Part shown: positions 2,929-57,603 of the stretch, one piece after another
How positions within the stretch are numbered: position 1 is the first letter of the stretch
Layout: each line of letters begins with the position of its first letter
NCBI RefSeq assembly: GCF_000419525.1
Contig: NZ_ATTE01000001.1
Span: forward strand, 2,650,655 to 2,714,654
Reading direction: 5' to 3'
DNA length: 64,000 nt
Source: Leucothrix mucor DSM 2157
Lineage (GTDB): Bacteria; Pseudomonadota; Gammaproteobacteria; Thiotrichales; Thiotrichaceae
The notes under the pieces: generated by a model
Told to the model about the DNA's origin: nothing
Database searches by the model: none
What the model saw: only the letters and a program-made list of their open reading frames with translations
Position numbers and translations under genes: made by a program

Positions 2929-5427
2929 CTAGGGTTTGCTAGCGGCATCCGAATCTTGGGGAATTGCTGGCTCAGTTCTCTCCAGCATCTGCATAATATT
3001 GGCGCGCATGGCTTTACTAAGTAACAGGCGAATGCGCTGATCTGCGCGCTCAAACACTTCACTAAACGCAAGATCTTCCGTGCCATACACTTTCACGTAA
3101 TCGATGTGAATGAGCGTATCAATAAAGTTGGCAATCAGGTTTTTATCTGAATAATCTGGCGAATTCAACTCATGAATCATCGCCACTCGCTGCGCCATCA
3201 ACTGACACTTCTTTTCAAGCTCGGCTTTGGGGATGGTTTTAGTGCCACTTTGCGCTAATAACGCGAGAGTCAGGTAGTAGACTTCAAGCGTCGGTGAAAT
3301 CACCCGCGCCAGTAAATTAAGCTGTGCAAACTCCAGTGTTCCAAAGCTGCGACGCTCATAGCTATCACTGTCAGCATCCTTTTCCAATAAACCCTGCTCA
3401 CACATAAGCTGCAGCATATTTTTGATCGCAGTGGGCAGCTCATCAACTTCCCACACTAAAAATAGCTCACTCTTTAAGAATGGATAAATCAGCACAATCA
3501 GCTTGATAATATCCCGCTCCGGCAGCTTGCGCATATTGATAAAGCAGCAGGCGATCACGGATGGCAGCGCCATTAAATGCAGAATATTATTGCGATAATA
3601 AGTGAGCGATACCGAGTGTTTTTCATCCAAATACAGAATATCACCCAGCTCATGCTGGCGACGCTTGAGCATTTTTAAGGCTTCTACTCGTGCCACTTGT
3701 GCAGCACCGGTTTCCTGCGTCACGACTACGCGATTGGAATAGCCCTGCTGTGAAATTAAAGCTTGGTAGACCGACAGCATTTTTAATAACTCAGCTTCAT
3801 CCATGCTTTGCTTGGAGGTGGCAAGCAATACAGTGGAAATCAAGTTCACCGCATTCACCGTCGCCGCCTGATTGATTCGACTGGCAATGGTGTCAGAGAC
3901 CGTTTCTACCGAATCACGCACCCATTCCGGTCGCTTAGCATCATCATACTCAGCCGTTTTCCAATCGTCCTGCTGCTCATCCAACACCTTATTCAGGAAA
4001 ATAGGCTCACCAAAGTTAGCCGATACTTTTCCGAAATTCCCCCGAATCTGCAGCATCGAACGCACAGAGTTCATAAAGGTTTCGGACTTTTTATCCTCCC
4101 CTGATAGCTCTGCCTGATAGGCTTTGGTTTCCAGCAGCTTTTCATAGCCGATATACACCGGAATAAAGGCAACTGGCTTTTTGCGATATTTCAAAAAGCC
4201 ACGCACGGTCATTGAAACCATGCCGGGCTTGGGCTTGAGCAAGCGTCCGGTACGGCTGCGGCCACCTTCCACGAAATATTCAATGGCGACACCTTTAGAC
4301 ACCAACTCAGCCACATACTCAAACATCACTGCGGAATACAGCTGATTGCCTTTAAAGCTGCGGCGAATAAAGAACGCGCCACCACCACGCAAAATCGAAC
4401 CAATCACTGGCATATTCAGATTGCGCCCCGCTGCAATATACGGAATCGCCAACCCTTCGTAATAAATCACATACGACAGCAGTAGATAGTCGATATGGCT
4501 ACGATGGCACGGCACATAAACCAGTTCATGGGTGCGGGCTAGCTCTTTAAGCTCGGCGTTATTCGTCACCTCAATGCCAGAATAAAACTTATTCCAGAAG
4601 TATGACAAACCACGATTCATCAGCTGAATGGTGATCTGCGTGCAGTTAGCCACAATCTCATGCACATAGCGCCGCGCTTGCACGGTAGCTTGATATTCGG
4701 TGAGATTATCTTCGGCACTGCGCGCTTTAATGGCTGCCTGCACATCCGACTTTAAAATCAAATCCCGCACCAAGGTCCGGCGGTGGGAAATATCCGGTCC
4801 CAAGGTTGCGACACGCTCATCGGTTAAACGCTTGGATAATACACCCTGCAAACGATCAATCATTTGATCGCTGAGTTCGTCATGATCCGGCTCGGCTTTA
4901 AAGCGAATCACCTCGGAGTATTTGACAAAGGTATCGCGGCCATGCACCAATATCGTAAAAAATTTGCGCACACGGCTGGCCAGATTCCACGAGTCTGCAA
5001 ACACCACTGGCAACCAACGCTCTTGCTTGGAAACAGGTCGCCCCCAAAACACCGAGACCGGTACAAACTGAATTTCTTTACCCGGATGATCCCGTAAACA
5101 CTCCACAATCCCACGCAACATACGCGAGCGCTTCGGTTGTTTTTGTAGCCAAGCTTTAAACGGTTGGCGCGGTGAAATCGAGTACACAGAATACCAGGCT
5201 GACAGCTCAGCAATGCCAACGGGATTCAGCGGCGATGGCAATCCTAAGCGTTCACACTCGGTTTCCAGTACTAATAAACTCGACCATGAACGGGTTTCTA
5301 ATACATAGATAATTGGCTGATCCGGCCTGATATCCAACTCGCTCAATTCAGTGGGCACCACATCGGTTCTCACCCATAAATAGAGGAATTTTCTGGCTAA
5401 GTAATTAATGGATTTACGGATAGTCAT
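2929..5427 (-). CDS. plsB: Glycerol-3-phosphate 1-O-acyltransferase PlsB
   Basis: This inner-membrane enzyme carries out the first step of phospholipid synthesis, acylating sn-glycerol-3-phosphate at position 1 with acyl-ACP or acyl-CoA. The 832-residue length matches the large gammaproteobacterial PlsB family (E. coli about 807). The HxxxxD acyltransferase motif is HRSHID at residues 308-313, followed by the conserved GGGAFFIRRSFKG block, then VEGGRSRTGR and FIPVYIGYE, the other PlsB motifs. It is the first gene of a minus-strand group with the amidohydrolase and EamA genes, and diverges from the aromatic leader/DAHP synthase unit. Confidence 0.97.
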   Translation of the reverse strand: MTIRKSINYLARKFLYLWVRTDVVPTELSELDIRPDQPIIYVLETRSWSSLLVLETECERLGLPSPLNPVGIAELSAWYSVYSISPRQPFKAWLQKQPKRSRMLRGIVECLRDHPGKEIQFVPVSVFWGRPVSKQERWLPVVFADSWNLASRVRKFFTILVHGRDTFVKYSEVIRFKAEPDHDELSDQMIDRLQGVLSKRLTDERVATLGPDISHRRTLVRDLILKSDVQAAIKARSAEDNLTEYQATVQARRYVHEIVANCTQITIQLMNRGLSYFWNKFYSGIEVTNNAELKELARTHELVYVPCHRSHIDYLLLSYVIYYEGLAIPYIAAGRNLNMPVIGSILRGGGAFFIRRSFKGNQLYSAVMFEYVAELVSKGVAIEYFVEGGRSRTGRLLKPKPGMVSMTVRGFLKYRKKPVAFIPVYIGYEKLLETKAYQAELSGEDKKSETFMNSVRSMLQIRGNFGKVSANFGEPIFLNKVLDEQQDDWKTAEYDDAKRPEWVRDSVETVSDTIASRINQAATVNAVNLISTVLLATSKQSMDEAELLKMLSVYQALISQQGYSNRVVVTQETGAAQVARVEALKMLKRRQHELGDILYLDEKHSVSLTYYRNNILHLMALPSVIACCFINMRKLPERDIIKLIVLIYPFLKSELFLVWEVDELPTAIKNMLQLMCEQGLLEKDADSDSYERRSFGTLEFAQLNLLARVISPTLEVYYLTLALLAQSGTKTIPKAELEKKCQLMAQRVAMIHELNSPDYSDKNLIANFIDTLIHIDYVKVYGTEDLAFSEVFERADQRIRLLLSKAMRANIMQMLERTEPAIPQDSDAASKP

Positions 5428-5582
5428 AGAGCCCTGTTATGCCGCTTTAAAGTTTAGGAAGTATACAACGTTGCTGAGCGCTATGGCCGGCAGATTGCAG
5501 ATTGTTATTAATTTCATAACCTTACCGATTAGTTAATATCGCAATCAGACAGAAATCATCAAAAGATTATGAAATTATTTTT

Positions 5583-5597
5583 TTTACCAACGGTAAA
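5583..5597. promoter_or_regulatory. Inverted repeat in the plsB/leader intergenic region
   Basis: A perfect inverted repeat, TTTACC AAC GGTAAA, in the divergent region between plsB and the aromatic leader peptide. A TTGCAT (5606-5611) and TATTAT (5628-5633) pair with a 16-base spacer lies just downstream. That would start transcription almost at the leader ATG, so the true promoter is unresolved. The palindrome is not the TyrR box arrangement (TGTAAA-N6-TTTACA). Which gene it controls, if any, is open. Confidence 0.3.
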
Positions 5598-5640
5598 GTT
5601 TTCGCTTGCATGAACGCTCGTTATTGTTATTATCGGGGCC

Positions 5641-5745
5641 ATGAACACATTAAACACACAACGATTTATTCAGCCAGCCACGCAATCTGCCTCTCACGAG
5701 ACGGGTTATTCTTGGCTGGGCTATTTTTATGGATTCACTGAATAG
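5641..5745 (+). CDS. Aromatic-rich leader peptide upstream of DAHP synthase
   Basis: A 34-codon frame, ATG at 5641 to TAG at 5743-5745, too short for ordinary gene calling. Six of the last twelve residues are aromatic: Tyr23, Trp25, Tyr28, Phe29, Tyr30 and Phe32, in the run GYSWLGYFYGFTE. The peptide is followed within 20 bases by competing hairpins and an intrinsic terminator directly in front of the DAHP synthase gene. That is the arrangement of amino-acid leader peptides such as those of trp and pheA. The ribosome-binding site is weak (GGGG close to the ATG). The role as sensor of charged Tyr/Phe/Trp tRNAs is inferred. Confidence 0.72.
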   Translation: MNTLNTQRFIQPATQSASHETGYSWLGYFYGFTE

Positions 5746-5763
5746 GTCGCTGTAGAAACATCT

Positions 5764-5828
5764 GTAGGCGGTCTAAAAACTGCCTACCTGAGAACCCCAA
5801 TAGGCAGGCGTCTATCGGGGTTTTTTTT
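5764..5828 (+). promoter_or_regulatory. Transcription attenuator of the DAHP synthase gene
   Basis: Three mutually exclusive pairings can be read. Segment 1 GTAGGCGG (5764-5771) pairs with segment 2 CTGCCTAC (5780-5787). Segment 2 CTGCCTA (5780-5786) pairs with segment 3 TAGGCAG (5801-5807). Segment 3 CCCCAATAG (5795-5803) pairs with segment 4 CTATCGGGG (5812-5820, one mismatch), followed by eight T at 5821-5828. The 3:4 hairpin is the terminator and 2:3 the antiterminator. Segment 1 begins 18 bases past the leader stop codon, a little far for simple ribosome masking, so the exact switching geometry is uncertain. Confidence 0.7.
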
Positions 5829-5849
5829 GGCCTAGAGGAAATTATTAAA

Positions 5850-6947
5850 ATGAACAGCAAGACAACTTTGGAAGATTTAAACGTGTTAAGTGCAGAACGA
5901 TTAATCACACCGGTGCAGCTAAAACAAGAAATTCCTGTTACCGAGCGTGCGATGGAAACCGTCGCCGCAGGCCGCCAAACCATTAAAAACATACTGGACC
6001 GGACTGATCCACGCATGTTTCTGGTCGTTGGCCCCTGCTCCATTCACGATACTGAAGCCGCTATGGACTACGCGCAGCGCCTTAAAGCACTGGCAGAAGA
6101 AGTCTCCGATACGCTCTACTTAGTGATGCGTGTTTACTTCGAAAAGCCTCGCACCACGGTTGGCTGGAAAGGTCTGATCAACGATCCACACCTCAATAAT
6201 TCATTCGAAATCGAAGAAGGTCTGAAAATTGGTCGCAAGCTGCTGACGGATCTGGCGGACATGGGTATGCCAACGTCTACAGAAGCGCTTGACCCGATTT
6301 CACCACAGTTCCTGCAAGATCTGATTAGCTGGAGCGCCATTGGAGCACGTACCACTGAGTCACAAACTCATCGTGAAATGGCTTCTGGTTTGTCCTCAGC
6401 AATTGGCTTCAAAAACGGTACCGATGGCGGCTTAGATGTTGCCATGAATGCACTCAGTTCAGTGGCTGCACCCCACCGCTTCTTAGGTATTAACCACGAA
6501 GGCGAAGTGTCGGTCATTCATACTCGCGGCAATCAACATGCACACGTCGTATTACGTGGCGGCAGCAAAGGCGCTAACTACGATGCGGCGAGCGTTGCAG
6601 AGTGTGAGCAGTCTTTACTGGCAGGTAACCACAAGCCCAATATTATGATCGACTGCAGCCATGCAAACTCTGAAAAAGACCACAACCGCCAGCGCAATGT
6701 ACTGGAAAATGTGGGCGAGCAAGTGGTGAATGGCAACCAATCAATCATCGGCCTGATGGTTGAAAGTAATATTGGTGCAGGCAATCAGAAGATTCCGGCG
6801 AATTTAGCTGATCTGGAATACGGTGTTTCGGTGACCGATGCCTGTGTTGACTGGGAAACCACTGAAACCATGATTCGTGCATTACGTGATCAATTAAAAG
6901 ATGTGCTGCCACAACGACAAGCACAGCAGGCTCAGAAAGTTGCCTAA
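5850..6947 (+). CDS. aroG: 3-deoxy-7-phosphoheptulonate synthase, AroF/G/H type
   Basis: DAHP synthase condenses phosphoenolpyruvate and erythrose-4-phosphate, the committing step of the shikimate pathway to Phe, Tyr and Trp. The 365-residue length fits the class I-alpha family (E. coli 348-356). Visible motifs are VGPCSIHD with metal-ligand Cys63, FEKPRTTVGWKG, GARTTESQTHREMASG, LRGG and DCSHANS. A GAGGAAA ribosome-binding site supports the ATG at 5850. It lies just after the aromatic leader and attenuator, so expression probably responds to aromatic amino acids in addition to any allosteric feedback. Which E. coli paralogue (AroF, G or H) it matches functionally cannot be decided by eye, so the symbol is provisional. 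Confidence 0.95.
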   Translation: MNSKTTLEDLNVLSAERLITPVQLKQEIPVTERAMETVAAGRQTIKNILDRTDPRMFLVVGPCSIHDTEAAMDYAQRLKALAEEVSDTLYLVMRVYFEKPRTTVGWKGLINDPHLNNSFEIEEGLKIGRKLLTDLADMGMPTSTEALDPISPQFLQDLISWSAIGARTTESQTHREMASGLSSAIGFKNGTDGGLDVAMNALSSVAAPHRFLGINHEGEVSVIHTRGNQHAHVVLRGGSKGANYDAASVAECEQSLLAGNHKPNIMIDCSHANSEKDHNRQRNVLENVGEQVVNGNQSIIGLMVESNIGAGNQKIPANLADLEYGVSVTDACVDWETTETMIRALRDQLKDVLPQRQAQQAQKVA

Positions 6948-57046: not shown

Positions 57047-57087
57047 AAAAAAAAGCCCGATCTGCATATTGCCGATCGGGCTTTTTT
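57047..57087. terminator. Bidirectional terminator closing the exopolysaccharide locus and ilvH
   Basis: AAGCCCGATC (57053-57062) pairs perfectly with GATCGGGCTT (57074-57083) around an eleven-base loop, with an A-run before and a T-run after. It serves both convergent transcripts. Confidence 0.92.
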
Positions 57088-57108
57088 ATTAAGCGATGCT
57101 TTAAAAAT

Positions 57109-57603
57109 CTACACTCTCAAAGCGATATTTCCACGAGCAATACCAATACATCCAGATCGAACCACCTCGATGATAATCTGATCTCGCATCGCAACGATAA
57201 AGGCATCAAGCTTATCGCCTTCACCAGACACTTCAATAGTGAACGTGCGATTACTCAGGTCAATAATCTTGCCTCTGAAGATATCTGCGATCTGCTTGAT
57301 TGAAGTGATTGCATCAGCATGCTTTGCTTCCACTTTAATCAACATCATTTCACGCTCAATATACTTGTGCTCAGACAAGTCAGAAACCTTCACAACCTCA
57401 ATCAACTTGTTCAGCTGCTTCAGAATCTGCTCAATGATTTGCTCACTGCCACGAGTGACCAGTGTCAAGCGCGACAGGCTGTCATCATCTGTCGGAGCAA
57501 CAGAGAGAGACTCAATATTATAGCCACGAGCTGAAAACAGACCGACAACTCTAGATAAAGCACCCGACTCATTTTCCATTAAAACTGAAATTACATGTCG
57601 CAT
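57109..57603 (-). CDS. ilvH: Acetolactate synthase small (regulatory) subunit
   Basis: The regulatory subunit of acetohydroxyacid synthase, giving valine feedback control. The 164-residue protein has an N-terminal ACT domain (RHVISVLMENESGALSRVVGLFSARGYNIESLSVAPT) and the C-terminal ALS_ss_C domain, the same size as E. coli IlvH (163). It starts three bases after the ilvI stop codon, in the same operon. Confidence 0.97.
   Translation of the reverse strand: MRHVISVLMENESGALSRVVGLFSARGYNIESLSVAPTDDDSLSRLTLVTRGSEQIIEQILKQLNKLIEVVKVSDLSEHKYIEREMMLIKVEAKHADAITSIKQIADIFRGKIIDLSNRTFTIEVSGEGDKLDAFIVAMRDQIIIEVVRSGCIGIARGNIALRV

Follow-up and report, generated by a model that had tools for sequence, protein, structure and literature searches.

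A predicted six-segment attenuator with a mixed tyrosine, phenylalanine and tryptophan leader peptide upstream of a DAHP synthase gene in Leucothrix mucor and relatives

The window, the whole 64,000-nucleotide stretch of Leucothrix mucor DSM 2157 DNA that was analysed, carries on its forward strand a gene for a type-I DAHP synthase, the enzyme at the entry to the shikimate pathway, which is preceded by a short frame rich in aromatic codons and by a series of RNA segments with competing partners. In Escherichia coli, control of DAHP synthase is through TyrR, TrpR and feedback. The features at the locus are as follows, in window positions.

5606 to 5633, + strand: promoter-like boxes, seen by eye (TTGCAT at 5606-5611, a 16-base spacer, and the extended -10 element TG-T-TATTAT at 5625-5633)
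5641 to 5745, + strand: leader ORF of 34 codons, read from the sequence (ATG at 5641, stop codon TAG at 5743-5745)
5662 to 5673, + strand: segment A, within the leader at codons 8-11, partner of B (5738-5749)
5738 to 5751, + strand: segment B, spanning the stop codon of the leader, partner of A (through 5738-5749) or of C (through 5743-5751)
5764 to 5775, + strand: segment C (segment 1 of an earlier note on this DNA), pairs with B (through 5767-5775) or with D (through 5764-5772)
5779 to 5787, + strand: segment D (segment 2 of that note), pairs with C or, through 5780-5786, with E
5801 to 5807, + strand: segment E (segment 3 of that note), pairs with D as the antiterminator or sits in the terminator stem
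5790 to 5828, + strand: predicted intrinsic terminator E:F, with its stem at 5790-5825 and a run of eight T at 5821-5828
5850 to 6947, + strand: the regulated gene, a type-I DAHP synthase of the aroF/G/H family (NF009395, 533 bits; TIGR00034, 507 bits)

The frame at 5641-5745 translates as MNTLNTQRFIQPATQSASHETGYSWLGYFYGFTE, and its residues 23-32, YSWLGYFYGF, hold three Tyr, two Phe and one Trp (Y23, W25, Y28, F29, Y30 and F32); direct reading thus confirms the 34-codon frame with an end rich in Tyr, Phe and Trp that the earlier note had described. Other mixed leaders are those of ilv and thr. Of 2000 shuffled versions of the leader, 17 equal its aromatic run, a modest figure by itself, but the run recurs in relatives, and a putative short leader ORF with codons for the end products near its end is found by sequence in all eight copies of the element discussed here. 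Across the five genus copies the pN/pS of the leader is 0.44, with codons 22-34 at a pS of 0.63 and a pN of 0.19, and codons 2-21, which contain segment A, at a pS of only 0.29.

In the window, TATTAT at 5628-5633 is followed by 7 bases before the leader ATG, and CTTGCA together with ATTGTTAT is unchanged across the five genus copies. By eye, a TATNNT box ends 6-7 bases 5' of the leader ATG in all eight copies, and seven of them also have a TTGCA(N) box 16 bases 5' of the TATNNT box, the exception being the copy from ERR598993, which has TGGACA at 18 bases. A scan of 5400-5900 for simple consensus patterns returned neither promoter nor terminator, presumably because the -35 hexamer agrees with TTGACA at only three of six positions and because the terminator rule tolerates no stem mismatch. 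Going by general knowledge, a TATNNT box 6-7 bases before the ATG would place the start of transcription at, or adjacent to, the A of that ATG. The poor ribosome-binding site that had been counted as a weak point in the earlier note is real, in that no Shine-Dalgarno sequence is seen by eye before the leader ATG, and fits a leaderless transcript instead: to judge from the sequence, the leader mRNA is probably leaderless and translated without a ribosome-binding site. Such a start, if real, would link ribosome loading to the very first nucleotides of the transcript. Just 5' of the promoter-like boxes, at 5583-5597, the window also has a palindrome, TTTACC-AAC-GGTAAA, which by eye is absent in the genus relatives.

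Downstream of the leader, the 1:2, 2:3 and 3:4 pairings and the eight T just upstream of the DAHP synthase gene, as drawn in the earlier note, are all found: 5764-5772 pairs with 5779-5787, 5780-5786 pairs with 5801-5807, and the latter is contained in the 5' portion of the terminator stem. Sequence and fold together predict an intrinsic terminator between leader and gene, and none of 200 dinucleotide shuffles folds as stably as the native RNA (z -5.0). What had been overlooked, besides the promoter-like boxes before the ATG, are segment A in the first half of the leader and segment B over its stop, the latter pairing with C in the window through nine base pairs that join 5743-5751 (the stop codon and the bases following it) to 5767-5775. 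As had been pointed out, 18 bases separate the leader stop from segment 1, but the resulting difficulty with masking falls away, since B over the stop codon pairs with segment 1. On the modelled pairings the element is a six-segment attenuator of the his type, where A:B, C:D and E:F are predicted to terminate, and B:C and D:E to allow read-through. At gathering score Rfam gives only two tRNAs across the window and none of its families at 5550-5900, where the best matches are to two sRNA families and fall far under that score.

The genus search covered seven genomes, including the window's own (G000), three of the seven being only 56-69% complete. Four further genomes carry copies of the leader (G001, G002, G003 and G005); G004 (64% complete) yielded no window-type gene and G006 just the 3' part of one where a contig ends, and neither is informative about the leader. 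Among the 63 genomes of the family, the same 63 that represent the order, a member of another genus (G045, locus L098) also has leader and attenuator. Two MAG contigs, TMED1 (L004) and ERR598993_bin.45 (L005), carry a diverged version; they were matched by covariance model R1 at 40.2 and 37.9 bits, as two of 92 loci searched, 76 of which came from the 80 related loci of a named collection. A terminator-plus-ORF scan that is independent of R1 likewise found an aromatic leader with a terminator only at L004 and L005 among the 80 loci, ten of which have a terminator-like site upstream within up to 330 bases (some, L073, L055 and L027 among them, offer fewer than 330). The full leaders are MNLFNPQRFMQPARKSALIGTDFSWLVYFMYDS in G045, MHCNDQFKLSSPRSKLALKQFRFFCRLGYYFFIKF in TMED1 and MQQRATVSSSRTTSRLMMLFEQFKNPARDYWLGNYYSTN in ERR598993, those on the two MAG contigs ending in RDYWLGNYYSTN and RFFCRLGYYFFIKF, and the four others are close to that of the window. 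Within the last 13 leader codons Tyr is present in 8/8 copies, and Trp and Phe in 7/8 each; the TMED1 leader has no Trp, and that of ERR598993 has no Phe in these 13 codons.

Searched across the order, R1 matched 8 of 63 genomes at E <= 0.001, six of these matches being the attenuator; those in G007 and G035 are weak, lie elsewhere in the genome and are not convincing copies. Motif reading left aside seven of the 16 family loci, whose genomes the R1 search covers. Three weak R1 matches (at L035 and on the opposite strand of L005; E 0.036-0.054) were dropped, and a second match in the window genome (G000:C1:2707701-2707846, minus strand, 31.9 bits; about 57047-57192 of the window) was set aside, as this minus-strand hairpin with a T-run, located at the 3' end of frames of the acetolactate-synthase type, is probably an operon terminator. 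Class-wide, model R2 matched 4 of 369 genomes, G000 included, under strict filters that scored just seven candidates per genome and may miss diverged copies; the three other matches (35.7-38.8 bits) have no adjacent recognisable DAHP synthase frame and look like chance terminators. A plasmid collection gave no match to the attenuator. In Vibrio loci, frames rich in Phe and Tyr near the start (MFFIVYT...) have no such terminator downstream and were rejected as copies; we suspect that TyrR boxes may lie there.

The earlier note had made close relatives one of its tests, and there, in five other genomes, both the leader frame and the competing pairings are kept. In the modelled structures six close copies form mutually exclusive folds with B at the leader stop and few mismatches: they retain all nine aligned A:B pairs, except for one each in G000 and G045, and when B to E are folded without F, the combination of B:C and D:E is the minimum-energy structure in five of the six, the exception being G001. 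The D:E helix of G001 contains a C.A mismatch. In G045, a double change in B:C from G-C to A-U preserves pairing, and C-G replaces U-G at another pair. Both-side changes affect 2 of the 18 B:C and D:E pairs in the six-copy alignment, a count equalled in 60 of 500 shuffles and not decisive alone, while the covariation score of the same alignment is reached by 9 of 500. When partners are swapped over the eight copies, the native combination is matched by 42 (B:C), 26 (C:D), 11 (D:E) and 3 (E:F) of 5000 permutations and, marginally, by 268 for A:B, the permutations being not fully independent since the five genus copies are related. Swaps among four lineages only, with 24 possible ranks, place the native partners first for A:B, B:C and D:E, second for E:F and fourth for C:D. 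The A:B pairing of TMED1 is weak, and in ERR598993 model R1 misaligns A, for which CAGUCAGUU is a better candidate by eye only. Frame, aromatic run and stems across the eight copies nonetheless lend support, from sequence and model, to what the earlier note had proposed, a mixed Tyr/Phe/Trp ribosome-mediated attenuator before a DAHP synthase gene.

The predicted architecture is like that of hisL in E. coli and Salmonella, which also has six segments with B over the leader stop, and which forms B:C and D:E when the ribosome stalls and C:D and the terminator when it arrives at the stop (his-type attenuation in general is outlined in the relevant parts of PMC3896937). Folded in an identical manner, the E. 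coli his leader gives B:C and D:E at six of its seven His codons, and C:D at the last His codon and at the stop (by eye). It differs in that the codons here are for Tyr, Phe and Trp, whereas hisL has seven for His, in that the leader has 34 codons and that of hisL 16, and in that no 5' UTR is predicted here before the leader ATG and a DAHP synthase is controlled.

We consider it highly probable (roughly 0.88), on the sequence and modelled folds, that the element is a his-type ribosome-mediated transcription attenuator through which one DAHP synthase gene would sense a shortage of charged tRNA-Tyr, tRNA-Phe or tRNA-Trp. Transcription would start at the leader ATG or no more than one or two bases away from it, and a ribosome would load on the AUG at the 5' terminus with no Shine-Dalgarno sequence to guide it. 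With the aromatic tRNAs charged, the ribosome at the stop codon would cover B, so that C:D forms, E remains available to F and the T-run ends transcription. A shortage of any one of these tRNAs would stall the ribosome within codons 23-32 and leave B free to pair with C; D, thereby released, would pair with E, and the polymerase would continue into the DAHP synthase gene. With no ribosome loaded, A:B, C:D and the terminator would form, an off state predicted for the window copy though not for every copy. The start site, leader translation, termination and the response to each amino acid are in this scheme what we infer.

To compute the dependence on ribosome position, we assumed a footprint reaching 12 bases beyond the first nucleotide of the A-site codon, removed the RNA up to that limit and folded the remainder to E. 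In the window copy, D:E reaches 0.75-0.85 with the ribosome stalled at W25, Y28, F29 or Y30, and the stalls at Y23 (0.40) and F32 (0.27) are weaker; with the ribosome at the stop codon C:D stands at 0.87 and D:E at 0.00, and the same two values are obtained with no ribosome. Mean D:E for stall and stop, respectively, is 0.65/0.00 in G000, 0.99/0.01 in G005, 0.89/0.01 in G002 and 0.98/0.00 in G003, the four of eight copies where the computed switch from antiterminator at the stall to terminator at the stop is clear; it is partial in G045 (0.99/0.40), weak in G001 (0.15/0.00) and ERR598993 (0.26/0.00), and absent in TMED1 (0.97/0.97). Without a ribosome, D:E is 0.00 in G000, G001 and ERR598993, 0.11 in G002 and 0.26 in G003, and it rises to 0.93 in G005 and 0.98 in both G045 and TMED1, which means that a basal off state is not general. 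Sequence and computation together establish the parts, their conservation and the exclusive pairings, along with, for most copies, a predicted dependence on ribosome position.

A reading in which only one or two amino acids are sensed and the remaining aromatic codons are incidental strikes us as unlikely without being far-fetched. The Corynebacterium leader aroR has Phe-Tyr-Phe and, by the account available from PMC11802643, answers Phe and not Tyr; TMED1 has no Trp and ERR598993 no Phe in its last 13 codons, and the Y23 and F32 stalls act weakly in the window copy. Set against this are the near-universal presence of all three residues in the last 13 codons (Tyr in all eight copies, Trp and Phe in seven each) and the finding that W25, Y28, F29 and Y30 each yield the antiterminator in the window copy.

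A classic trp-type attenuator of four segments, where the stalled ribosome itself masks segment 1, would make use of the same 1:2, 2:3 and 3:4 pairings, which are real. Segment 1, however, begins 18 bases past the stop, and a ribosome at codons 23-32 leaves it free under the assumed footprint. Moreover, when the stretch from the stop codon to C, which holds B, is shuffled with segments 1-4 intact, the computed switch becomes weaker in seven of eight copies: the observed stall-minus-stop difference is reached by none of 100 shuffles in G005, by 1 each in G000 and G001, by 3 each in G045 and ERR598993, by 4 each in G002 and G003, and by 62 in TMED1. The mean difference after shuffling is 0.01-0.04 in G000, G001, G045 and ERR598993, and stays at 0.31 in G005, 0.48 in G002 and 0.36 in G003. 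We regard the trp-type arrangement as quite improbable. Still less probable is a metabolite-binding riboswitch, T-box or protein-bound antiterminator, which would share the upstream position and the terminator; what is conserved is a reading frame that carries codons for the end products, and 5550-5900 matches none of the Rfam families at gathering score. That a plain terminator, or a small RNA gene expressed constitutively, should lie next to an aromatic ORF by chance is hardly credible: stable hairpins with a T-run would look alike, and the best Rfam matches are indeed to sRNA families, if far below gathering, but the frame, the aromatic run and the two exclusive folds recur over eight copies and the leader has a pN/pS of 0.44.

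The window genome has two type-I DAHP synthases, the gene at 5850-6947 and an AroG-like one without such a leader, which lies directly after a hisG-like frame (L096, G000:C1:679659-680684); a third PF00793 match is taken, by its length, for a KDO-8-P synthase. The pheA-like gene, close behind another coding frame, likewise has no such leader within 330 bases upstream. The control of all aromatic synthesis that the earlier note had envisaged is not supported, given a second DAHP synthase and a pheA-like gene without such a leader; one of two DAHP synthases would be governed. TrpR was found in none of the seven genus genomes, the three incomplete ones included, and the TyrR family model reached its cut-off in none of them, only its central and C-terminal parts being matched in all seven. 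In other lineages aroF is under TyrR/TrpR control, according to the passages of PMC5343134 that treat it.

In a quick tree of 43 chosen rows, the eight leader-bearing genes form one clade (SH-aLRT 99) with L087, a paralogue in G001 that is 79% identical to the window gene and has no leader attenuator. Two label changes suffice on this tree, and their simplest reading is one gain and one loss. Neighbouring frames differ by eye among the window, G001, G045, G002 and G003, except that G002 and G003 have a divergent transporter-like frame in common. A fuller proposal, that of a leaderless six-segment attenuator that sums all three aromatic shortages, replaces the unfound TyrR and TrpR and moves with its gene as a self-contained cassette, is tentative, and we would put its chances somewhat below even; its mobility is suggested by neighbouring frames that mostly differ and by G045's genus, which otherwise carries a more distant version. 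As a separate observation, L087 lies within locus L145 (G001:C27:33000-39500), and a leader-less and a leader-bearing gene in one cell offer a natural comparison.

Parts of this picture have precedents. The earlier note was right about a Corynebacterium aroF attenuator: in C. glutamicum aroR precedes aroF and stalling raises transcription, as far as described in PMC11802643 and PMC4046766. Likened by description, it too is an aromatic leader peptide before a DAHP synthase gene; it differs in its Phe-Tyr-Phe run, in being Phe-responsive with no response to Tyr in the portions of these accounts at hand, and in belonging to another phylum. The uORFC-13-1 motif of Acholeplasma is alike in that a uORF containing one Phe codon or more is followed by a terminator and aroF, but it has a ribosome-binding site, is hypothetical, and comes with no mixed run in the description accessible in PMC8632094. 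Closer in lineage, the passages concerned in PMC2659441 report a possible attenuator in the Shewanella aroF 5' UTR by RSSVM prediction, with tRNA-Tyr sensing suspected, and cite a 1980 hypothesis of E. coli aroF attenuation; these are likewise gammaproteobacterial aroF genes under suspected attenuation, and neither leader nor structure is given in those passages. The Sinorhizobium meliloti trpL attenuator RNA begins, similarly, at the ATG of its leader ORF and is leaderless, but this is a Trp leader of 14 residues that controls trpE(G), by the sections available of PMC7298713. E. coli pheL, which we also folded, resembles the present element in its aromatic leader peptide and terminator, and differs in having Phe codons only and in controlling pheA. 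For the Actinobacteria, according to the extract available of PMC1262725, no RNA structure is conserved upstream of phenylalanine or tyrosine operons.

DAHP synthase attenuation (C. glutamicum) and a leaderless trpL are therefore already known, on the accounts just cited. A literature search on aromatic and DAHP synthase attenuation, proteobacterial attenuation and leaderless leaders did not return this element among the matches listed, and among those matches it is the combination, with defined leader and structure and in a gammaproteobacterium, that looks new. A genus with TrpR unfound and TyrR below cut-off seems to read charged tRNA directly, one leader standing for three end products, and the eight copies lend themselves to testing how switches of this kind drift with function kept.

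Two further observations concern other aromatic and histidine genes. A possible Trp leader, MRLNLYKHWRW (L150), lies about 90 bases before a possible trpE (Chorismate_bind) near G000:C1:1899261, any terminator there being weak by eye. Finally, a frame that by eye resembles the HisG C-terminus directly precedes the second DAHP synthase in all seven genus loci (L090 and L092-L097).
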